Shown in pieces: positions 33,311 to 44,091 of a DNA stretch of 64,000 nt. Source of the stretch: Bacteroidota bacterium (GTDB taxonomy: Bacteria > Bacteroidota > Ignavibacteria > Palsa-1295). Numbering within the stretch: the first letter of the stretch is position 1; each line of letters opens with the position of its first letter. The notes beneath the pieces were generated by a model that saw only the letters and a list, made by a program, of their open reading frames with translations, did not search any database and was not told the DNA's origin. Both the position numbers and the translations under genes were made by a program. Location: positions 124,001-188,000 of the forward strand of contig JAFDZW010000005.1 of assembly GCA_018266755.1 (NCBI GenBank), read 5' to 3'.

Positions 33311-34246
33311 TTACGCTTGGGCCCGTTGGACGTCAGAATTACCGATCAGTTGGATGAACATATCTTCCAGAGATGTACGCTTTGCATGGATATCGCGGAT
33401 GAGGATACCATGAGCTCGTAGCGCGTCGATTGCGGCATTCAGCTCTTCGATCGAAGAACATTCGATTGTAATATGACCATCGGGCGCCGATCCTCCGACA
33501 GGGTGCAAGAGAGGAATCGCCTCTTCGTACTGTTCGGCAGTCACAGAGATGTCGTACGTATCCTTCTTTGAAGTGAGCGCATCCACCGTTCCTTCCGCAA
33601 CGACTTTTCCTTGCCGAAGGATCGCGACGCGATCCGAAACCTGTTCCACTTCGCTCAGGAGGTGAGAATTCAAGAACACCGTTTTCCCGCGCTGCTTCAG
33701 ATGAATCAGTACGTCGCGAATCTCTTTTCGCCCGACGGGATCGACGCCATCAGTCGGTTCGTCAAGCACGATCAGATCGGGATCATTGATAAGTGCTTGT
33801 GCAAGTCCGAGCCGCTGCATCATGCCCTTGGAGTATTTTCGAACCTTCATGTCCCGCCAATCGCTCATCCCGACAAGCGAGAGGGTTTCGTTGATTCTGG
33901 TTTCAAGAATGCTGCGGGGCACCATCGAGAGTTTACCGAAATATCGAAGCACCTGCTCTCCCGTTAAATGCAACGGGTATCGATGACTCTCCGGCAGATA
34001 CCCAATGCGTGCTTTGGCTTGTATGGAGCCGAACGGATGGCCGAGCACATAGCCGGAGCCGGCGGTAGGGAAGACAATCCCGAGCATACATTTGATGAAG
34101 GTCGTCTTTCCGGCGCCATTCGGACCGAGGAGCGAATAAATCTCGCCCGGTTGGACTGAAATCGAGATGCCTTGCAACGCTGGTACGGCCTTTGCGCCTC
34201 CACCGAAACGTTTTGTAATACTATCGGTTGTAAGAACGTATTCCAT
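33311..34246 (-). CDS. ABC transporter ATP-binding protein
   Basis: A 311-residue ATPase from ATG 34246 (MEYVLTTDSITKRFGGG). Walker A GPNGAGKTTF, Q-loop GYLPESHRYP, signature YSKGMMQRLGLAQAL, Walker B LIVLDEPTDGVDP and the switch His in NSHLLSEVEQ are present. About 90 C-terminal residues form the accessory domain common in ABC-2 ATPases. It pairs with the permease immediately downstream. Divergent from the SDR gene with a 52-base shared promoter region. Confidence 0.92.
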   Translation of the reverse strand: MEYVLTTDSITKRFGGGAKAVPALQGISISVQPGEIYSLLGPNGAGKTTFIKCMLGIVFPTAGSGYVLGHPFGSIQAKARIGYLPESHRYPLHLTGEQVLRYFGKLSMVPRSILETRINETLSLVGMSDWRDMKVRKYSKGMMQRLGLAQALINDPDLIVLDEPTDGVDPVGRKEIRDVLIHLKQRGKTVFLNSHLLSEVEQVSDRVAILRQGKVVAEGTVDALTSKKDTYDISVTAEQYEEAIPLLHPVGGSAPDGHITIECSSIEELNAAIDALRAHGILIRDIHAKRTSLEDMFIQLIGNSDVQRAQA

Positions 34247-34298
34247 GAACGATGGATCGTGATGATTGTGCGTGTAAATATACCATAGATTCGAGCGG

Positions 34299-35057
34299 AT
34301 GTTACGAAGGCATGAAGGAAAGGTGGCAGTGATTACCGGGGCGGCAATCGGCAATGGTCGGGCAATGGCCTCGCGATTGGCACGCGAAGGAGCGCAGGTG
34401 GTGGTTGCGGATGTGGACGATGCGACAGAGACGTTGAATGAAGTTTCCGCTCAAGGGAATGTCCTTGAACCGTACTATTCACAAACGGACATCACGAATC
34501 CGGCCTCGGTCTCGGCACTCGTCGATTCGATCCGTGTGAAGTTCGGCAGGCTCGATATCCTTGTGAACAATGCAGGTGTGTATGAAGAGGAGCCGTTCGA
34601 ACTGCTGACGTACGAACGCTGGGCGAATATGTTGAATGTGAATCTTAACGGACTCTTTCTGATGTGCAAGGCAGCATTGCCGCTGATGAAGGAACGTCAT
34701 TTCGGTCGCATCGTCAACCTCTCGAGCAATACGGTGTGGCTTGGTACACCGTACCTGACCCACTATATCGCAAGCAAGATGGGCATTATCGGTTTCACTC
34801 GCGCGCTTGCCGGCGAGGTCGGACACTTTGGCGTAACTGTCAATGCCATTACGGTCGGGCTGACCGCGACACAGCGTCCGGCGGATTCCAAACTCGGGAA
34901 ATCCTCGATGCTCGAGTTCGTTTTGCCGCAGCAGGCCATCGGACAAACCGAGACTCCGGATGACATTGCCAGCGTTGTTTCATTTCTGGCTTCCGACGAT
35001 TCTGCGATCATCACCGGACAGACAATTAACGTCGATGGCGGTGCCGCGCGGCACTAA
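34299..35057 (+). CDS. SDR-family oxidoreductase
   Basis: A 252-residue classical short-chain dehydrogenase. The NAD(P) loop TGAAIGNGRAMA lies near residue 15; the acidic ADVDD after the second strand suggests NAD preference. Further marks are NNAGVYEEEP, the catalytic Ser in LSSNTVW, and Tyr-Lys in YIASKMG. The C terminus ITGQTINVDGGAA is that of FabG-like enzymes. The substrate cannot be told from the sequence. It stands alone, divergent from the ABC ATPase and upstream of tRNA-Cys. Confidence 0.9.
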   Translation: MLRRHEGKVAVITGAAIGNGRAMASRLAREGAQVVVADVDDATETLNEVSAQGNVLEPYYSQTDITNPASVSALVDSIRVKFGRLDILVNNAGVYEEEPFELLTYERWANMLNVNLNGLFLMCKAALPLMKERHFGRIVNLSSNTVWLGTPYLTHYIASKMGIIGFTRALAGEVGHFGVTVNAITVGLTATQRPADSKLGKSSMLEFVLPQQAIGQTETPDDIASVVSFLASDDSAIITGQTINVDGGAARH

Positions 35058-35112
35058 GAGGGAACTCTCCAACTTCATTTTCTCTTTTCTGTGTGCTTTT
35101 CAAACAAGAAAC

Positions 35113-35184
35113 GGCGCCGTAGCCAAGTGGTAAGGCAGAGCTCTGCAAAAGCTCCATTCATCAGTTCGAATCTGATCGGCGCCT
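35113..35184 (+). tRNA. tRNA-Cys (anticodon GCA)
   Basis: A 72-base cloverleaf. Acceptor arms are GGCGCCG (35113-35119) and CGGCGCC (35177-35183), with discriminator T, normal for tRNA-Cys. The anticodon stem GAGCT/AGCTC encloses CTGCAAA with anticodon GCA. The T loop TTCGAAT is present. CCA is not encoded. Confidence 0.95.
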
Positions 35185-35222
35185 CTCTTCATTGCTCCCC
35201 GGTAGTACGCTATACCACTCGC

Positions 35223-36776
35223 TTGAGATATTCTGTTCTAATCTCGCTACTGATTCTGGGTATCAATACGTCGTTCGCCCAGACGACTCGCCATGACGAT
35301 CAAGCCCCGAAGCGTAAGAAAATAAATCTCGGACGATTAATCAACGGCAGGTATTCGGAGCTCGCTCCGATTATCGCTCCGAACGGACGCTACCTGTTCT
35401 TTACGATGGGCAAAGAACACCCGATGAATATCGGCGACGATCATTTGCAGGACTGCTACGTCTCGAAACTTCTTCCCAATGGACAGTGGTCGGTCCCCAA
35501 GAATCTCGGATTTCCGATCAACTCCAGCGGTAACGATGCCATCTCCGGCGTCTCGCCCGACGGCCGAACCCTCTTCATCAAGAACTTCGCATACAATCCG
35601 ACGAGCGGGCTCTGTTTTGCAAAGATCGATTCGGTCGGGCATTGGCATATTAACCCGATCACCATCGAACATTATTCAAACAGCAGCCATCTTTCGTCTC
35701 AATGTATCAGCGTCAATGGCGATTACATCATCGTTTCCATCGAACGCGAGGATGGGTTCGGCACACTCGATCTCTATGTCTGTAAGGTCAAAGACAGAAA
35801 CAAGAATCTCTATGGTGAGCCTCAGAATCTGGGACCTGTGATCAATACACCGGCAGATGAGTTTGCTCCATTCCTGGCGGCAGACGGGAAGACCCTGTAT
35901 TTTTCCTCCAGAGGTCGAGGCGGCTACGGCGAGGCCGACGTGTATATTACAAAACGTCTTGACGATTCGTGGGTGAACTGGAGTGCCCCCAAGAACATGG
36001 GGCCGGATATCAACACCGATGGGATGGACGCATATTACAGTGTCCCTGCCTCGGGAGATCTGGCATACTTCTCTTCGATGAACGGGGCGAATCAGTTGGA
36101 TCTCTATAAGATATCGTTGCTCGATGACGAGCGACCTGACCCCGTGATGCTACTTCAAGGGAAAGTGATGAATCGGGCTGGGGATGTGATCCACGCATTG
36201 GTGGTCGCGACCGATATGATGCAAAATATGGAGGTAGCATCGTCAGAGAGCTCGGAGGGGTTAGGAGAATTCTCGTTGATCCTGCCTGCGGGCCGATTAT
36301 ATCGGCTTTCTGTCTCGGCACCGGGCTATCTGCCGTATAGCATGCAAATGGACGAAACGAATGCCGAACAATTCTCCGACACATCGATTACGGTACTGCT
36401 TGATAGCATCGGGGTCGGTAGTGTCGCCACGATAGAAGACATTTTCTTCGATTTCAACATGGCGACGCTCCGTCCGGAATCGAATTATTCACTGGACGCG
36501 CTCGCAGAATTGCTTCTAAGAAATGCGAAATGGACCGTTCGGATCGAAGGCTACACCGACAGCGTTGGCACTGTCGAATCGAACAAAAAGCTCTCGTTCC
36601 TTCGAGCACAGGCTGTTTCCCAGTACCTCATTAATAAGGGCATTAAGGAGCGCCGGTTGTCTGTTGAAGGGTTTGGTCCTGACGATCCGGTAGCCGATAA
36701 CTCGACCGAAGAGGGAAGAAGAAAGAATCGGCGCGTACAATTCAGAATCATGAAGATCGAAAGCGAGGGGGAATAA
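35223..36776 (+). CDS. PD40 beta-propeller / OmpA-domain envelope protein (PorE-like architecture)
   Basis: An envelope protein of about 517 residues. After a signal peptide ending in NTSFAQ come PD40/WD40-like propeller repeats (for example FAPFLAADGKTLYFSSRGRG). Then comes a carboxypeptidase-regulatory-like domain (LQGKVMNRAGDVIHALV to VSAPGYLPYSM) and a C-terminal OmpA peptidoglycan-binding domain (DIFFDFNMATLRPES, then EGYTDSVGT and GRRKNRRVQF). This order matches PorE of the type IX secretion system except that no TPR segment precedes the propeller. The frame is open through the tRNA upstream, so the start must lie after it; TTG 35223 is the only reasonable choice I see, without a clear ribosome site. 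The rimP gene follows after 9 bases. Confidence 0.82.
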   Translation: MRYSVLISLLILGINTSFAQTTRHDDQAPKRKKINLGRLINGRYSELAPIIAPNGRYLFFTMGKEHPMNIGDDHLQDCYVSKLLPNGQWSVPKNLGFPINSSGNDAISGVSPDGRTLFIKNFAYNPTSGLCFAKIDSVGHWHINPITIEHYSNSSHLSSQCISVNGDYIIVSIEREDGFGTLDLYVCKVKDRNKNLYGEPQNLGPVINTPADEFAPFLAADGKTLYFSSRGRGGYGEADVYITKRLDDSWVNWSAPKNMGPDINTDGMDAYYSVPASGDLAYFSSMNGANQLDLYKISLLDDERPDPVMLLQGKVMNRAGDVIHALVVATDMMQNMEVASSESSEGLGEFSLILPAGRLYRLSVSAPGYLPYSMQMDETNAEQFSDTSITVLLDSIGVGSVATIEDIFFDFNMATLRPESNYSLDALAELLLRNAKWTVRIEGYTDSVGTVESNKKLSFLRAQAVSQYLINKGIKERRLSVEGFGPDDPVADNSTEEGRRKNRRVQFRIMKIESEGE

Positions 36777-36785
36777 TACTCACAG

Positions 36786-37277
36786 ATGGCAACGAAACTC
36801 ATTGATACGATACGTCCGGTAGCAGAATCTGCAGCCGCGGAACGTGGCTTGTATGTTCTTCATTGTATCGTCAGAGGGACTGACTCGCGGCCGGTGATCG
36901 AGATAACCATCGATGGGGATCGTCTTGTGGGGGTCGAAGACTGCGAAATAGTAAGTAAGGCGTTGCAATCATTTGCCGACGAACAACTCGGTCAGAATGT
37001 CAATTACCGACTTGATGTATTGTCCCCAGGCATTGACGAACCAATCATTTACGATTATCAACTTAAGAGAAGTATCGGACGAATTCTTCGAATAAGTTAT
37101 ACAGATGACCTGAGTATTCGTGAGGTAACCGGCAGGCTTGTCGCGTTTAATGAAAGCGAGCTTACTATCGAACAAGAGAAGCTCACTTCAAAGGGTCAAT
37201 CCCCGAAGAAACTGGGTGCCCTTACAGTACCCCGGGAGTCCATCACGAGTGTCCGACAGATCGCCATGATCCGGTAA
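36786..37277 (+). CDS. rimP: ribosome maturation factor
   Basis: A 163-residue protein needed for 30S subunit assembly. The N-terminal alpha/beta domain contains VIEITIDGD and DCEIVSKAL; the family signature is YRLDVLSPGIDEP; an SH3-like C-terminal domain follows (ELTIEQEKLT...). It is the first gene of the classical rimP-nusA-infB cluster. A strong hairpin lies between it and nusA. Confidence 0.93.
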   Translation: MATKLIDTIRPVAESAAAERGLYVLHCIVRGTDSRPVIEITIDGDRLVGVEDCEIVSKALQSFADEQLGQNVNYRLDVLSPGIDEPIIYDYQLKRSIGRILRISYTDDLSIREVTGRLVAFNESELTIEQEKLTSKGQSPKKLGALTVPRESITSVRQIAMIR

Positions 37278-37353
37278 ATTCTCGAAATTGGTGAATTTTA
37301 CGGCAAAAACCTCTGTTAGATAGTTTCTCAAAAGCTGTGTTATTAAAGTGTTG

Positions 37354-37387
37354 CAGACTTTGGGCGCCAAAGTCTGTTTCTGTTTCT
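37354..37387 (+). terminator. terminator/attenuator hairpin between rimP and nusA
   Basis: A perfect 10-bp stem, CAGACTTTGG (37354-37363) and CCAAAGTCTG (37367-37376), has a three-base loop GCG and is followed by TTTCTGTTTCT. The nusA ATG is 23 bases after the stem. It looks like an intrinsic terminator inside the operon, so partial read-through or NusA-dependent attenuation is likely. Confidence 0.75.
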
Positions 37388-37398
37388 ACGGTGCTATT

Positions 37399-38727
37399 AT
37401 GAATCCACAAATTGTAGAATCCTTCGCGGAAATGGTCCGCGAGAAGGGCATTGACCGCGACATCCTCATGTCTGTCATCGAGGAGACGTTCGCTATGATG
37501 GTGCGCAAGAAATATGGCCAAGAGGCCAAGTTCGACATCGTCATGAACATGGATAAAGGCGACATCGAGATCTATCTCGAGAAGCAAGTCGTCGATGTGG
37601 TCGAAGACCCGACAACGCAAATATCTGCGGAGGATGCTCGTCTGAAATCCGGTGAAGATCTGGAAGCCGGCGACGAATATGTGGAGATCATCCGCACGAC
37701 GAAAGACTTCGGTCGCCGCTTGATCATTACCGCGAAGCAGAACCTGAATCAGAAGATCAGGGAGATCGAGAAAGACAACCTCTTTAACGAATACAGCTCG
37801 CTCGTCGGCGATATCATTGTCGGCGAAGTGTATCAGCAGCGACGTGGCGATCTCTTTATCCTACACGAGCGCCGCGAGCTATTGCTTCCGGCGAGCGAAC
37901 AGATCTCGCGTGAACGCTGGCGTAAGGGCGATACCATTCGCGCACTCGTGAAGGAAGTACGTCGGAATTCGGTAAACTCGACGCCGGTCGTCATTCTTTC
38001 GCGCACCGATAATCGCTTCCTCGCAAAATTGATGGAGATCGAAGTACCCGAAATCTTCGACGGGTTTATTACGATCAAAGCAATTGCCCGCGAACCAGGC
38101 GAACGTGCGAAAGTTGCCGTCGAATCGAACGACGATCGTATCGATCCGGTGGGCGCTTGCGTGGGTATGAAGGGCGTGCGTATTCACTCGATTGTGCGTG
38201 AACTCGCAAACGAAAGCATCGATGTGATCCCGTGGGCAGAGGATCCGGCGATGTTCCTCGCTCGTGCGCTCTCGCCTGCAAAGTTGATCTCCGTCGACCT
38301 CGACGAAGAACATCACACCGCGACGGCCCTGGTCTCCGACGATCAGGTTTCGCTTGCGATCGGCAAACAAGGACAGAATGTGCGGTTGGCATCCCGCCTA
38401 ACGGGGTACCAGATCAACCTTGTCAAGGAAGCTCGTGATGAGGAAGATATCGAGTTGATCGAGTTCCGCGACGAACTCGGCCTCGACCTGTACACCGAGT
38501 TGATCAAGGCACGTATCGATACGGCTCGTGAATTCCTCGATACGCCGGAAGAAGTGTTGCTCAAGATTAACGGGCTGACGCCTGAGCGAATCGTTCAGGT
38601 ACGTGGCATCCTCTCGGCAGAACTGCAACAGGCAGATCAAGAACTCGAGAGTATGGCCGAAAAAGCCGGATTTAAGCTCACGACCATGCGCGCCGATGGC
38701 GGCGACGCAGATGCCAAGGCCGAGTAA
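37399..38727 (+). CDS. nusA: transcription termination/antitermination factor NusA
   Basis: A 442-residue RNA polymerase-binding factor controlling pausing, termination and antitermination. The N-terminal domain (MNPQIVESFAEMVREKGIDR) is followed by the S1 domain (GEVYQQRRGDLFI), then two KH domains with GACVGMKGVRIHSIVREL and AIGKQGQNVRLASRLTG. After the KH region only a short helical end remains. The two acidic repeats of E. coli NusA are missing, as in most non-proteobacteria. ATG 37399 is chosen because the conserved N terminus begins there. Confidence 0.96.
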   Translation: MNPQIVESFAEMVREKGIDRDILMSVIEETFAMMVRKKYGQEAKFDIVMNMDKGDIEIYLEKQVVDVVEDPTTQISAEDARLKSGEDLEAGDEYVEIIRTTKDFGRRLIITAKQNLNQKIREIEKDNLFNEYSSLVGDIIVGEVYQQRRGDLFILHERRELLLPASEQISRERWRKGDTIRALVKEVRRNSVNSTPVVILSRTDNRFLAKLMEIEVPEIFDGFITIKAIAREPGERAKVAVESNDDRIDPVGACVGMKGVRIHSIVRELANESIDVIPWAEDPAMFLARALSPAKLISVDLDEEHHTATALVSDDQVSLAIGKQGQNVRLASRLTGYQINLVKEARDEEDIELIEFRDELGLDLYTELIKARIDTAREFLDTPEEVLLKINGLTPERIVQVRGILSAELQQADQELESMAEKAGFKLTTMRADGGDADAKAE

Positions 38728-38788
38728 GCGATATGAACTCGGTCGAAATGCAGTTCGAGAACAAATACATTCAGATACGCTCTAACGT

Positions 38789-41524
38789 ATGGCGGTTGAA
38801 CCGACAGAGAAAGCGAAAAAACAAACAGTCCGTACCCTTGCGACGGAACTCAATATCAGCCATGATACACTGATCGAGTTTCTGCAAAGCAAGGGCTTTA
38901 CCGGCATCAAGACCATCATGTCGAAGATCGACGAAGATGCTCTTGAGGTGGTGATGAAGCAGTACGGCAAAGAAAAAGACGTTGCCGAAAAACGTCAAAA
39001 GAAGGTCGCCGCATTCAAAGAGAAACGGTCAAAGACAAAAGAGGGCGAACCCGAAGCCCCGAAGTCGGCAGAACAGCCGGTTGCAAAAGAGGTCGTTGCG
39101 CCCACTCCCGAACCGGAGGAAATCACGCCACAGCCTGAGGTGGTCGAAGTTGCTCCCGCTGAAGCGCCGGTGCTCGAAGAACCCGTGCCCGAGGTTATTC
39201 AAGAAGCACCTGTTGTCGAAGAGATTGTCGCTGTAGAACCCGAAGAAGCTGCTCCTGCGGAGGACGCGACCGTCGAAAGCGGAGTTGACGACGGGACGAT
39301 GGAAGAGGTCGAAGGACCCGACGGAAAGCGGAAGCGCCGGAAAAAGAAAACGACCACACTCTTGATGTCCGCCGGCACCGCGGACACCACGACCATGCCG
39401 GGCCTCAAGATCAAAGGCAAGATCGATCTCGACGCTCTCAAGCCGCAAAAGAAGGAAACGCCGAAGCCGCCCGAACTGCGCAAAGCCGGCGAACCGAAGA
39501 AGCTGAAATTGAAAACCGGCGATGCCGCCAAACGTGGCAAGGCCGAGTTCGAAGATGCAGAGAAAAAGAAACGCGCCCGTCCGGATAAAACCGTAGATGC
39601 CCGCGAGGTCCGCGATGCAGTCCGTCGCACGATGACCGGTCTTGACGAAGGTCGAAGCCTCGCCGGCCGTGCACGTATGCGCAAGATGAAGCGCAGAGAA
39701 CGCGCCGAGACCGAAGAGAGGAAGTTGCAGGAGGAGATTGCCGAGCAGTCATCGGTGATCCGCCCGACCGAGTTCGTGACCGCCAACGAACTTGCGAACC
39801 TCATGAATGTCGACGTCGGACAGATCATCTCGAAGTGTATTGCGCTTGGCCTGATGGTATCGATCAACCAGCGCCTCGACAAGGATACGATTCAGCTCGT
39901 TGCCGACGAATTCGGGTATAGTGTCGAATTCCAGGAGGAATATACCACCGACACGCTTGAGGATACTTCGGATGCAGAGGAATCGCTCAAGCCTCGCCCG
40001 CCGGTAGTGACGATCATGGGTCACGTCGATCATGGTAAAACTTCGCTCCTCGATTACATCCGCAAATCGAACGTCGTTGCGGGCGAATCTGGTGGAATTA
40101 CGCAGCACATCGGTGCATACGAAGTGACGCTCGATTCCGGCCGACAGATAACATTCCTCGATACGCCGGGTCACGAAGCCTTTACGGCTATGCGTGCGCG
40201 CGGTGCCCAGGTTACGGATGTCGTTATCCTTGTTGTGGCTGCCGATGATAGTGTCATGCCTCAGACCTGGGAGGCTATATCCCATGCGACTGCGGCTGGT
40301 GTTCCGTTGGTGATTGCCATCAATAAAGTAGACCGACCGGAAGCAAATCCCGAACGTATCAAACAGCAACTTGCCGATAAGAACATTCTTGTCGAGTCAT
40401 GGGGTGGTAAGTACGGTTCGGTCGAGATCTCTGCCAAGACCGGCATGAATGTCGATAAGCTTCTGGACCGAGTGCTCCTTGAGGCCGATATTCTCGAGCT
40501 CAAAGCAAACCCGGATCGCGAAGCACGCGGTGTAATCATCGAAGCGGAAGTTGACAAGGGGAGAGGTATTCAAGCCACTGTGCTTGTTCAAAAGGGGACA
40601 CTCAGAATGGGTGACCCGTTTATCGCCGGAATGTATTCGGGCCGCGTTCGTGCAATGTTCGACGAACGAGGAAACCGTGTCGAAGAGGCCCCGCCGTCCC
40701 GTCCGGTACAGCTATTGGGCTTTGACGGCATTCCGCAGGCCGGCGATCAGTTCATCGTCGTTGAAAGCGATAGCGTCGCAAAAGACATTTCCACAAAGCG
40801 TGTCCAGCTCAAGCGCGAGCAGAACTTCAAGCAGATCCACGGCGTATTGAGCCTCGACGATCTGTCGGCGCAGATCAAAGAAGGTGCTGTGCAGAATCTG
40901 CGAATCGTCCTTAAGGGCGACGTGGACGGTTCGGTGGAAGCACTCGCCGACTCGCTCTTGCGGCTTTCTACTGCCGAGGTGAAAGTCGAAATCATTCACC
41001 GGGCGGTTGGTGCAATCAACGAGAACGACGTTAGCCTGGCTGCAGCATCGAATGCGATTGTCGTCGGCTTTCATGTCCGACCGAATCTCGATGCCCGAAA
41101 GATCGCCGCTGCCGAACATGTCGATATTCGCTTGTACAGTGTCATCTACGACTGTATCAACGAGATCCGCAGCGCTCTCGAAGGATTGTTGGCACCCGAG
41201 CAAAAGGAAGAGATCCTTGGCTCTGCAGAGGTGCGCGACACGTTCAAAGTCCCGAAGGTGGGTACGGTGGCAGGTTGTTATGTCGTCGATGGAAAGATCA
41301 CGCGCAACTCGAAAATTCGAGTCATCCGCGATGGCATCGAGGTCTTTGCCGGATCGCTTTCGTCACTGAAGCGATTCAAAGAGGACGTCCGCGATGTCGA
41401 TACCGGATACGAATGCGGTATCGGGTTAGAAAACTTCAACGATCTCAAGGTGGGCGATATGATCGAGTCCTTCCGTATTGTCGAAGTCAAGCGCAAACTC
41501 GAAACTACCGTCCCCGCTCGCTAA
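38789..41524 (+). CDS. infB: translation initiation factor IF-2
   Basis: A 911-residue GTPase that places fMet-tRNA on the 30S subunit. An IF2_N domain begins at residue 12 (VRTLATELNISHDTLIEFL). Next comes a long Pro/Glu/Val and Lys-rich linker (about 75-310) and a second N domain (TEFVTANELANLMNVDVG). The GTPase has G1 GHVDHGKT at 411-418, DTPGHEAF and NKVDRPEA. The C-terminal domains include AEVRDTFKVPKVGTVAGCYV. Length and order are normal. No ylxR or L7Ae-like gene lies between nusA and infB. Confidence 0.97.
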   Translation: MAVEPTEKAKKQTVRTLATELNISHDTLIEFLQSKGFTGIKTIMSKIDEDALEVVMKQYGKEKDVAEKRQKKVAAFKEKRSKTKEGEPEAPKSAEQPVAKEVVAPTPEPEEITPQPEVVEVAPAEAPVLEEPVPEVIQEAPVVEEIVAVEPEEAAPAEDATVESGVDDGTMEEVEGPDGKRKRRKKKTTTLLMSAGTADTTTMPGLKIKGKIDLDALKPQKKETPKPPELRKAGEPKKLKLKTGDAAKRGKAEFEDAEKKKRARPDKTVDAREVRDAVRRTMTGLDEGRSLAGRARMRKMKRRERAETEERKLQEEIAEQSSVIRPTEFVTANELANLMNVDVGQIISKCIALGLMVSINQRLDKDTIQLVADEFGYSVEFQEEYTTDTLEDTSDAEESLKPRPPVVTIMGHVDHGKTSLLDYIRKSNVVAGESGGITQHIGAYEVTLDSGRQITFLDTPGHEAFTAMRARGAQVTDVVILVVAADDSVMPQTWEAISHATAAGVPLVIAINKVDRPEANPERIKQQLADKNILVESWGGKYGSVEISAKTGMNVDKLLDRVLLEADILELKANPDREARGVIIEAEVDKGRGIQATVLVQKGTLRMGDPFIAGMYSGRVRAMFDERGNRVEEAPPSRPVQLLGFDGIPQAGDQFIVVESDSVAKDISTKRVQLKREQNFKQIHGVLSLDDLSAQIKEGAVQNLRIVLKGDVDGSVEALADSLLRLSTAEVKVEIIHRAVGAINENDVSLAAASNAIVVGFHVRPNLDARKIAAAEHVDIRLYSVIYDCINEIRSALEGLLAPEQKEEILGSAEVRDTFKVPKVGTVAGCYVVDGKITRNSKIRVIRDGIEVFAGSLSSLKRFKEDVRDVDTGYECGIGLENFNDLKVGDMIESFRIVEVKRKLETTVPAR

Positions 41525-41531
41525 GGCTGCT

Positions 41532-41903
41532 ATGTCAATCCGTACTGAACGGGTCGCAGGGGAGATCCAAAAGGCGCTCGCCGATATCTTCCAGCGCGAG
41601 TTTTCCCATTTGTATGAAGGAATCCTGACGGTTACGGCCGTCAGGATCACTCCGGACCTGCGGCATTGTAAGGTCTATCTATCGATCATTACCCGTGGGA
41701 GTGAGAACACTCGCGAAATGATGGTTCGCAATATCGAGCGTGAAACACCCCACGTTCGCGCTGCACTTGCCAAAGCCGTGCGGATGCGATATGTGCCGGA
41801 ACTCCGATTCTATCTTGACGATACGCAAGACGAGGTCGATCGCATCGAATACCTGTTTAAGGAGATCCACCGTCGTGAGGGGAATGCCGGCGGAAGTGAG
41901 TGA
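41532..41903 (+). CDS. rbfA: ribosome-binding factor A
   Basis: A 123-residue KH-fold protein that helps mature the 5' end of 16S rRNA in the 30S subunit. Start ATG 41532 (MSIRTERVAGEIQKALADIF) gives the conserved N terminus; VTAVRITPDLRHCKVYLSI and MRYVPELRFYLDDT are family blocks. It begins 7 bases after infB and overlaps truB. Confidence 0.93.
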   Translation: MSIRTERVAGEIQKALADIFQREFSHLYEGILTVTAVRITPDLRHCKVYLSIITRGSENTREMMVRNIERETPHVRAALAKAVRMRYVPELRFYLDDTQDEVDRIEYLFKEIHRREGNAGGSE

Positions 41904-42654
41904 GGAAACTCCGATCCTGACGGCCGAATCGTTCGCGCTCGACCGCGAAGCTGCGCTTGAGCAGTGCAATTCGCTTTCCGGTGCGATGCTGCTCATCGAT
42001 AAGAGCTATGGCATTACGTCGTTCGTCCCGGTGTATATCCTCCGAAAAATTCTTACCCGTCTCAGTAGCGATAAGTGGGTGAAAGTTGGCCATGCCGGCA
42101 CGCTCGATCCGTTGGCAACAGGGCTGCTGATACTCGGCACTCGCCGCGCGACGCGAAGCCTTACCGAATTCCTTGGTTCGGAGAAAGTATATCAGGCAGA
42201 GTTACGACTGGGCATCGTATCCCCAAGCTTCGATCTTGAAACGCCGATCACAGTAGAAAGTGACCTTCGCGGCATTACTAACAGCGAAGTGGAAGCTGTG
42301 GTACTCGGGCGGGTTGGGGAGCAGATGCAATTTCCTCCCGTCTTCAGCGCCGTCAAACAGGGAGGAAAGCCGGTCTATAAAGCTGCTCGCAAGGGGAAGC
42401 CGGTGACGCTTGAAGCAAAACCAATCGAGATCTATGCGATCACCGATCTGGACATATCCTTGCCCTACGTCCGCTTTTCGGTTCATTGCTCCAAAGGCAC
42501 CTACATACGAAGTCTTGCGCATGAGATTGGCGAAATTCTCGGTACCGGTGCCGTGCTAACCGCGTTGCGGCGTACGCATATTGGGGAGTACTCGGTTCAC
42601 GATGCCCTTCACTCAGACGAACTTCGACAAACACTCAGTTCGCTCAACGCATGA
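41884..42654 (+). CDS. truB: tRNA pseudouridine(55) synthase
   Basis: Makes pseudouridine 55 in the T loop of tRNAs. About 256 residues. Catalytic Asp is in GHAGTLDPLATGLL; other family parts are MLLIDKSYGITSF, FPPVFSAVKQGGKPVYKAARKG and CSKGTYIRSLAHEIG. The start is probably ATG 41884 inside the rbfA end, with GTG 41896 as an alternative. It overlaps ribF by four bases at its stop (ATGA). Confidence 0.95.
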   Translation: MPAEVSEETPILTAESFALDREAALEQCNSLSGAMLLIDKSYGITSFVPVYILRKILTRLSSDKWVKVGHAGTLDPLATGLLILGTRRATRSLTEFLGSEKVYQAELRLGIVSPSFDLETPITVESDLRGITNSEVEAVVLGRVGEQMQFPPVFSAVKQGGKPVYKAARKGKPVTLEAKPIEIYAITDLDISLPYVRFSVHCSKGTYIRSLAHEIGEILGTGAVLTALRRTHIGEYSVHDALHSDELRQTLSSLNA

Positions 42655-43583
42655 AAGTAACCTACGGTATCGAAAATATCGTCTCCGTTGCGCACACGGT
42701 GAGCACGCTCGGAAGCTATGACGGCCTGCATCTCGGGCACAGGGACATTCTACAGGTGTTGAAGCACAAACGCGATTCCGGAGGCCACGCCCGTGCTGTT
42801 GTCCTGACCTTCGACCCACACCCGCAAGAAGTACTCCGACGCAACGATACAACCGTCAATCTCCTGACCACCATCGACGAACGTCTTGCGCTTCTTGCGG
42901 AGACCGGCATCGACGAAACGGTCGTGATCAAGTTCGACCGTCAATTCTCGCAAACGCCGTATGCCGACTTCTTTCGGGAGGTGATCGTCGAAGGGCTTGG
43001 CACCGACGCCATGGTCGTCGGCTTTAATCATGCATTCGGAAAGAATCGGGAAGGGGACATCGCCCACCTCGAACAACTTGGAGCAGCGAGCGGCGTGGAA
43101 ATCACAGAAGTCCCGCCTCACATCGTTGATGGCGTCCAGATTAGCTCGACGAAGATCCGACACGCGCTACAGGAGGGCGACGTGCAGACGGCACATTTAT
43201 TCCTGGGGCGTCCATACGCCGTACGCGGCGTTGTTGTTGACGGCAACAAGATCGGCCGCACACTTGGATACCCGACCGCAAATCTATCGATCGCACCAAA
43301 CAAGCTCGTCCCGAAAGATGGCGTGTATGCGGCAACAGCCAGACTCTCTTCGGGTACTGTGCGAGCTGCTGTGAGCATCGGCATGCGGCCGACGATCGGC
43401 GACGGACTTGCGCGTGTCGTGGAAGCGTTGCTGCTGGATTTCGACGGGGATCTCTACGGAGCGACCCTGGAACTGCAATTACTGCAGCATATTCGTGAGC
43501 AAATAGCATTTGCCACCCTCGACGAATTGAAAGCCAAGATCACCGAGGATGTTACGACCGTGCGGTCGTTGGTAACACTCTAA
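42651..43583 (+). CDS. ribF: bifunctional riboflavin kinase / FAD synthetase
   Basis: A 310-residue enzyme that makes FMN and then FAD. The N-terminal nucleotidyltransferase has GSYDGLHLGHRDIL (HxGH-type loop) and VVGFNHAFGKNREGD; SSTKIRHALQEGD closes it. The C-terminal kinase domain has GRTLGYPTANL, DGVYAATARL and the end with EQIAFATLDELKAKI. It is translationally coupled to truB, an arrangement common in many phyla. No riboswitch precedes it, because its start lies inside truB. Confidence 0.95.
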   Translation: MKVTYGIENIVSVAHTVSTLGSYDGLHLGHRDILQVLKHKRDSGGHARAVVLTFDPHPQEVLRRNDTTVNLLTTIDERLALLAETGIDETVVIKFDRQFSQTPYADFFREVIVEGLGTDAMVVGFNHAFGKNREGDIAHLEQLGAASGVEITEVPPHIVDGVQISSTKIRHALQEGDVQTAHLFLGRPYAVRGVVVDGNKIGRTLGYPTANLSIAPNKLVPKDGVYAATARLSSGTVRAAVSIGMRPTIGDGLARVVEALLLDFDGDLYGATLELQLLQHIREQIAFATLDELKAKITEDVTTVRSLVTL

Positions 43584-43608
43584 CGCGAAACGATTTTAAC
43601 CACGAACC

Positions 43609-44091
43609 ATGACCATCTCAGGACTGCTAAACGGAGAACTCGCCAAAACCGAAGCGGAAACGGCTGTAGTGTCCGGTCGTGACGGATTACTCGTCATCAA
43701 GACCGATATGAGACTGCAAGAGGTCTTTATCGACGGCAAAACCGTCTCTGACGGTAATTCGGTGGCGCAAGTCGAGGTTGAGGTCGAATCCGAGCGCGAT
43801 CGGATCATACGAGAGCGTTTTCAGTCGGCGCTCACAAACGCAGAAGGCGGACAGACGGGTACCGGCGGTCATGCAAAGGTAGTCAAATCCCCAATGCCTG
43901 GACTGGTCAAAGCGATCAATGTTGCTGTCGGAGATCACGTAAAGCGCTCAACGACTGTCATTATCCTCGAAGCCATGAAGATGGAAAACTCAATCGCCGC
44001 AGGCGCCGACGGAATCATAAAGAAGCTCTCGGTCACCATTGGAAACTCGATTGAAAAAGGCGCCGCGATCTGTGAGATAGAAGGGCAATAA
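43609..44091 (+). CDS. biotin carboxyl carrier domain protein
   Basis: A 160-residue biotin carrier. The C-terminal biotinyl domain (about 90-160) contains VKSPMPGLV and the biotinylation motif EAMKMEN with Lys124. The N-terminal 80 residues form a small beta domain and linker. This composition suits the carrier subunit of acyl-CoA carboxylases (propionyl-CoA type) or biotin-dependent decarboxylases rather than AccB. No carboxyltransferase or biotin carboxylase gene is next to it. It lies 25 bases after ribF on the same strand and converges with mlaD. Confidence 0.85.
   Translation: MTISGLLNGELAKTEAETAVVSGRDGLLVIKTDMRLQEVFIDGKTVSDGNSVAQVEVEVESERDRIIRERFQSALTNAEGGQTGTGGHAKVVKSPMPGLVKAINVAVGDHVKRSTTVIILEAMKMENSIAAGADGIIKKLSVTIGNSIEKGAAICEIEGQ

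Follow-up and report, generated by a model that had tools for sequence, protein, structure and literature searches.

The rimP-nusA spacer of the window (the whole 64-kb stretch of DNA that was analysed) carries a T-tailed hairpin immediately upstream of nusA which, on balance, is probably the leader terminator of a nusA-infB unit, working as a NusA feedback attenuator and representing a displaced variant of the rimP-leader. The features of the locus, with the kind of evidence for each, are as follows.

36786..37277, + strand: rimP, with a RimP_N domain (ORF; Pfam PF02576, E 3.1e-8)
37291..37321, + strand: predicted nusA promoter, the promoter-like dyad GTGAATT-N16-TGTTAGAT (match to the tRNA-upstream motif; conserved columns)
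37354..37376, + strand: candidate terminator hairpin CAGACTTTGG-GCG-CCAAAGTCTG (sequence, folding, kept in relatives)
37377..37387, + strand: T-rich tail TTTCTGTTTCT, broken at bases 4, 6 and 10 (sequence)
37399..38727, + strand: nusA, with NusA_N, S1 and KH domains (Pfam; ATG start backed by the alignment of relatives)
38789..41524, + strand: infB (IF-2), next in the nusA unit (ORF, Pfam)

The hairpin starts 76 nt past rimP, in a spacer of 121 nt. Its arms (37354-37363 and 37367-37376) form 10 Watson-Crick pairs around the loop GCG, and an extra G-U pair (37353-37377) can be added at the base; five of the 10 pairs are G-C and the bottom pair is C-G. T occupies 8 of the 11 positions of the tail (37377-37387). 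By sequence, the element has what defines an intrinsic terminator, a stable stem directly followed by a T-rich tract. The initial annotation had reported a perfect 10-bp stem and a T-rich stretch, which can be read directly in the sequence, and its description of the element as intrinsic-terminator-like was borne out by stem, tail and folding energy. Its placement just before nusA was also right, except that the distance to the ATG is 22 nt and not 23. At the 5' end of the locus, the ORF called mechanically for the OmpA/PD40 gene (35091-36776, GTG start at 35091) overlaps the tRNA-Cys gene at 35113-35185, so the true start of this gene probably lies downstream of that GTG.

The 35-nt RNA from 37353 to 37387 folds at -14.8 kcal/mol, a value equalled by none of 200 dinucleotide shuffles; for the hairpin with its flanks (81 nt) the folding excess was smaller (z -1.75, 13 of 200 shuffles as good). 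Among 5000 dinucleotide-shuffled versions of the 121-nt spacer, six contained a perfect stem of 10 bp. When an uninterrupted Watson-Crick stem of at least 8 pairs and a T-tail were demanded, this hairpin was the sole case on the + strand of the 64 kb, and three were found on the - strand. By energy it ranked 9th among the 64 T-tailed hairpins of -10 kcal/mol or lower on both strands of the window, and a looser scan of positions 34000-44000 gave no excess of hairpins (13 found, 10.8 expected). As a terminator candidate it is good without being extreme. No second copy was detected in the 3.55-Mb genome at up to three mismatches, and a dispersed repeat was ruled out by this single-copy state.

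The hairpin was followed in a sample of 13 genomes of the window's family, in which G000 is the genome of the window. The identical stem, with the loop GTAG, is present in G001, of the same genus, and the same outer 8 pairs, with arms CAGACTTT/AAAGTCTG, in G002 and G006, both of genus g2. G000, G001, G002 and G006 share these identical arms, each genome having a single exact copy. A diverged hairpin (CAGGCTTTG..CAGAGTCTG) precedes nusA in G005 (g5), and no such hairpin was found before nusA in G004 (g4), where rimP adjoins nusA. All five hairpin copies have T-rich tails with TTT directly past the stem, and in the four relatives the hairpin lies 19-39 nt before the nusA ATG. The initial annotation had named the pairing of the stem in related genomes, and compensatory changes in it, as the check to be made. 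Pairing was kept in the close relatives (G001, G002 and G006; diverged in G005): across the five copies, which give four distinct rows, 90.9% of the cells pair, and sliding the partners by one to three columns lowers pairing to 17.5-50.0%. Compensatory changes were absent from the four distinct stem sequences, in which three pairs differ in one partner only, and a column-shuffle control paired 91.0% of cells, equal to the observed 90.9%. Judged from these sequences, the pairing of the stem is conserved across the copies; proof by covariation was not obtained, there being four distinct sequences with no double change.

The same arms in four genomes could also be seen as a palindromic DNA operator for a dimeric regulator, or as an RNA element serving translation or RNA processing. 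We consider both very improbable: the spacing of the arms varies (loops of 3, 4 and 6, and of 5 when all hairpin copies are taken), the T-rich tail is one-sided, and each of the four genomes has a single exact copy. Moreover, the changes in G005 break the dyad symmetry and retain pairing as G-U. A varying loop, together with changes that keep G-U pairs, fits an RNA rather than a DNA palindrome.

The position of rimP, located by HMM mapping with starts chosen by rule, was compared with that of the hairpin. In the family sample rimP lies directly before nusA in four genomes (G000, G001, G004 and G005) and not in the other nine. One gene, encoding kelch repeats and a secretion tail, separates rimP from nusA in G006, and two genes, of 329 and 324 aa, separate them in G002; the second of the latter had no Pfam match. 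In both genomes the promoter-like dyad and the same hairpin remain before nusA and not behind rimP. The idea of a terminator belonging to the 3' end of rimP was rejected on this observation. The initial annotation had put the hairpin inside a rimP-nusA operon, a view that is probably wrong, with rimP away from nusA in nine of 13 genomes and the g2 hairpin staying with nusA; the name rimP-nusA is correct as a gene order and probably not as one transcription unit. Folds of -7 kcal/mol or lower do occur within 200 nt after rimP in four of the nine rimP-separated genomes, among them G002 (-7.6, 105 nt after rimP) and G006 (-12.3, 169 nt after rimP).

A promoter motif was learnt from the regions upstream of 28 of the 46 tRNA genes of G000. 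It consists of two blocks, GGAACY-N16/17-cGTTTA, and reached a log-likelihood of 240 (12 restarts) against 152-161 in six shuffled sets (three restarts each). Of the 46 tRNA genes of G003, 30 were used, and in 20 of their upstream regions the unchanged motif had a site with a shuffle fraction no higher than 0.05. The dyad GTGAATT-N16-TGTTAGAT at 37291-37321 was the top match to this motif in 37200-37398. Its score of 3.87 is weak alone, since 148 of about 128,000 positions of the window and 52 of 200 shuffled spacers reach it, and a promoter score in one genome, taken alone, is not significant. Further evidence came from the relatives. The dyad, with the identical 16-nt gap, is found 75-88 nt before nusA in G001, G006, G002 and G005, as the best or second-best site, and the AATT and TGTTA columns are invariant across the five spacers, where they make a second conserved island at 75-88 nt before nusA. 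From this conservation the dyad is predicted to be the nusA promoter, and if it is, the hairpin lies in the nusA leader, 32 nt past the dyad. The strict dyad pattern occurs at two places in G000 and at six in the 13 family genomes, four of these before nusA. A regulon of an alternative sigma factor was considered for the dyad and rejected; as the tRNA upstream regions carry the same general dyad, a housekeeping promoter is more likely.

The Bacteroidota promoter type is TAnnTTTG. The tRNA promoters of G000 and G003, including the one at 35060-35090 of the window, follow GGAACY-N16/17-cGTTTA and are not of this type, and the sequence before nusA in families f13 and f18 resembles TAnnTTTG by eye. 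Possibly the housekeeping promoter has changed in the window's family. A search by title or abstract start found no literature on promoters of Kapabacteria.

The location of the predicted promoter bears on whether the hairpin could be a constitutive terminator of an OmpA-rimP unit, with the nusA promoter downstream of it. Such a role, which would suit a hairpin standing 76 nt after rimP with the look of an intrinsic terminator, is quite unlikely for the window. The hairpin and the ATG are only 22 nt apart (19-39 nt for the four other copies), hardly enough to hold a promoter; the promoter-like dyad precedes the hairpin; and in G002 and G006 the hairpin is present with a gene other than rimP upstream of it and absent behind rimP. 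The initial annotation had allowed that a promoter after rimP could let nusA bypass the hairpin. Judged from the sequences, the promoter is more likely to be upstream of the hairpin, at 37291-37321, than between the hairpin and nusA.

Some support for a constitutive terminator comes from the g3 genomes. In all seven of them rimP is located elsewhere than nusA, and a GC-rich T-tailed hairpin of -16.3 to -19.2 kcal/mol, different in sequence from that of the window, stands 76-147 nt before nusA in five (G007, G008, G009, G011 and G012). Before nusA, G003 and G010 have weak hairpins only, and G003 is a reverse case, with a hairpin of -19.7 before rimP and no strong one before nusA. A promoter-like dyad sits between the hairpin and nusA in several of the g3 genomes; because of this, the g3 hairpins may be ordinary terminators, and the g3 nusA promoter may bypass them. 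A dyad GAATTT-N13-GTGTTAG is conserved at about 42-56 nt before nusA in G003, G007, G008 and G012.

For the family as a whole, T-tailed hairpins of -9 kcal/mol or lower were found in 10 of 13 genomes against 3.05 expected, a modest enrichment in which the best-scoring stretch of G002 by energy differs from its conserved hairpin. Of the nine genomes with separated rimP, seven have a hairpin of this strength in the 220 nt before nusA and three have one in the 100 nt before rimP, which is a small contrast.

Genomes outside the family showed a different arrangement. From the rest of the class 48 were taken, and 42 of these were readable with rimP adjoining nusA; those left out were the four f13 genomes, G014 (whose contig ends at nusA) and G053 (where the NusA match is absent). 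Counted by energy, 38 of the 42 genomes had a T-tailed hairpin of -7 kcal/mol or lower in the 100 nt upstream of rimP; a few of these hairpins (e.g., those of G037 and G034) are not of the GGGC/GCCC type. Two of the four misses were G044, with only 28 nt before rimP, and G024, whose best-scoring fold is 101 nt away although a hairpin lies 23 nt before rimP. With no limit on distance, 39 of the 42 had a pre-rimP hairpin, where shuffles gave an expectation of 11.3. Many of these stems bear GGGC/GCCC or its inverse, like the published rimP-leader. The rimP-nusA spacer had such a hairpin in none of the 42 genomes, and a control stretch inside rimP in two; this absence is in part due to the shortness of the spacers (median 33 nt, at least 100 nt in four of 42), which lowers the chance of a hairpin there.

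RimP_N was detected in 242 of 247 sampled genomes of the phylum. RimP was not found by PF02576 in family f13 (G027, G036, G045 and G054; 99-100% complete) nor in family f18 (G151, G201 and G235; near-complete). With a second RimP model, whose three positive controls scored below 1e-35, five of these seven genomes had no match; the other two had one each, in G045 (E 0.024, in an ORF with a heavy-metal-binding domain) and in G235 (E 0.055, in a long ORF of 381 aa from the first ATG, a length unlike that of RimP). In f13 the block before nusA is nearly invariant and comprises TATATTTG, about 30 nt, G(G/A)CGCTCCTAAAAGCGTC and a T-tract, in four of four genomes by alignment. The f13 stems are weak: three of the four regions reach -7 kcal/mol (G036 via another stretch) and none reaches -9. 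GGGC..GCCC stems with T-tracts precede nusA in f18, two detected by scan and that of G151 by eye. A T-tailed hairpin is thus present before nusA in all seven f13 and f18 genomes by alignment or by eye, and the scan found one of -7 kcal/mol or lower in five of seven, against 0.67 expected. In a NusA tree, f1, f13 and f18 each formed one group, and whether f13 and f18 make one lineage was not settled by it.

These hairpins recall the rimP-leader, which is described in passages of Naville and Gautheret (2010; PMC2965389) as an intrinsic-terminator hairpin lying 4-130 nt before the first gene of a nusA/infB unit, with the paired stem signature GGGc(...)gCCC. The same passages call it the most ubiquitous bacterial attenuator and take NusA as the best candidate for its effector, keeping RimP as possible. 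Like the rimP-leader, the element of the window is a short terminator hairpin in what would be the leader of a nusA-infB unit, judging from the dyad, and no antiterminator is visible, here from single-strand folds only. It differs in standing after rimP and before nusA, and not before rimP as the first gene, and in lacking the GGGc(...)gCCC signature, which is absent from CAGACTTTGG/CCAAAGTCTG, CAGACTTT/AAAGTCTG and CAGGCTTTG/CAGAGTCTG; the letters GGGCGCC do appear at the apex of the hairpin in the window and are absent from G002, G006 and G005. In the genome of the window, the 160 nt upstream of rimP showed no T-tailed hairpin. The hairpin therefore lacks two defining features of the rimP-leader, its motif and its place before rimP. 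The Rfam covariance model of the rimP-leader, which we take to be RF01770, gave no match in the window at the gathering threshold and none in 17 loci at E up to 5, a result of little power, the pre-rimP hairpins of the outgroup being also unmatched. The Rfam scan of the window returned one tRNA only, and the lenient search of the 17 loci nothing relevant.

Two well-studied operons can be set beside this locus. In Bacillus subtilis, NusA is autoregulated via NusA-stimulated termination in a 5' leader, according to a passage of PMC12288461 (citing Mondal 2016), and the nusA operon begins with ylxS, that is, rimP (passages of PMC7546277 and PMC2965389). By anatomy and synteny the hairpin of the window may likewise be a leader terminator of the nusA unit, although it precedes nusA itself, whereas the B. 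subtilis operon starts with ylxS. The metY-rimP-nusA-infB operon of Escherichia coli, as presented in passages of PMC6511841, has the terminators t1 and t2 upstream of rimP and a promoter, P3, inside rimP whose start is 75 bp before nusA. Its nusA-proximal promoter resembles the one predicted here, and its terminators upstream of rimP resemble the pre-rimP hairpins; unlike in the window, those passages describe no terminator between P3 and nusA. Among titles, abstract starts and passages of the open-licence literature we found no earlier description of a hairpin between rimP and nusA.

Under the attenuator reading, transcription would start just past the dyad at 37291-37321 and yield a leader of roughly 60 nt. 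At the hairpin and its imperfect U-tract, 11-22 nt short of the nusA start, some of the transcripts would then be ended. High NusA would increase termination and lower nusA-infB mRNA, and low NusA would allow read-through; transcripts arriving from rimP would also be stopped at the hairpin. Such termination is deduced from the sequence, as is the possibility that other lineages use T-tailed hairpins of different kinds to the same end. Weak hairpins and interrupted U-tracts are typical of terminators dependent on NusA or NusG, the interruptions being distal in those dependent on NusA (passages of PMC8060035). By analogy, dependence on NusA is likely here too, given a broken tail and a stem that is only half G-C: five G-C pairs in 10, a C-G bottom pair and U-tract breaks at 4, 6 and 10 fit this dependence without proving it.

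The sequence does not itself name an effector, and the same leader terminator could be under another control (NusG, translation of a short leader, growth rate or temperature) or be an unregulated partial terminator that sets the level of nusA. According to passages of PMC8060035, NusA works jointly with NusG at most of the intrinsic terminators of B. subtilis, and passages of PMC6511841 report that infB expression goes up in cold-stressed E. coli, both of which would accommodate such a control. We nevertheless judge it unlikely: where rimP is separated, the partner of the hairpin is nusA, and the bottom pair of the stem is C-G, a type that the model in PMC8060035, in the passages seen, ties, together with G-C, to reliance on NusA alone. 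Feedback by NusA is favoured because the g2 hairpin stays with nusA and because T-tailed hairpins precede nusA where RimP was not found, which suggests that the hairpin is tied to nusA and not to the end of rimP. The attenuator reading is weakened by the small contrast of seven against three in nine genomes and by the short spacers. Of the autoregulatory attenuator put forward in the initial annotation, the control by NusA stands as the best reading, by the precedent of B. subtilis, and the operon-internal stop tied to rimP found no support.

A broader proposal, to which we give even chances, is that the widespread rimP-leader is truly a nusA leader that senses NusA and not RimP. The sequence of the stem (CAGACUUU/AAAGUCUG here) would then be free to change, since NusA would read the strength of the terminator rather than a fixed motif. 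Lineages in which rimP is separated or was not found are natural experiments on control by RimP versus NusA. In most of them the hairpin accompanies nusA, which makes NusA feedback likelier as the common logic and provides concrete leaders to test.
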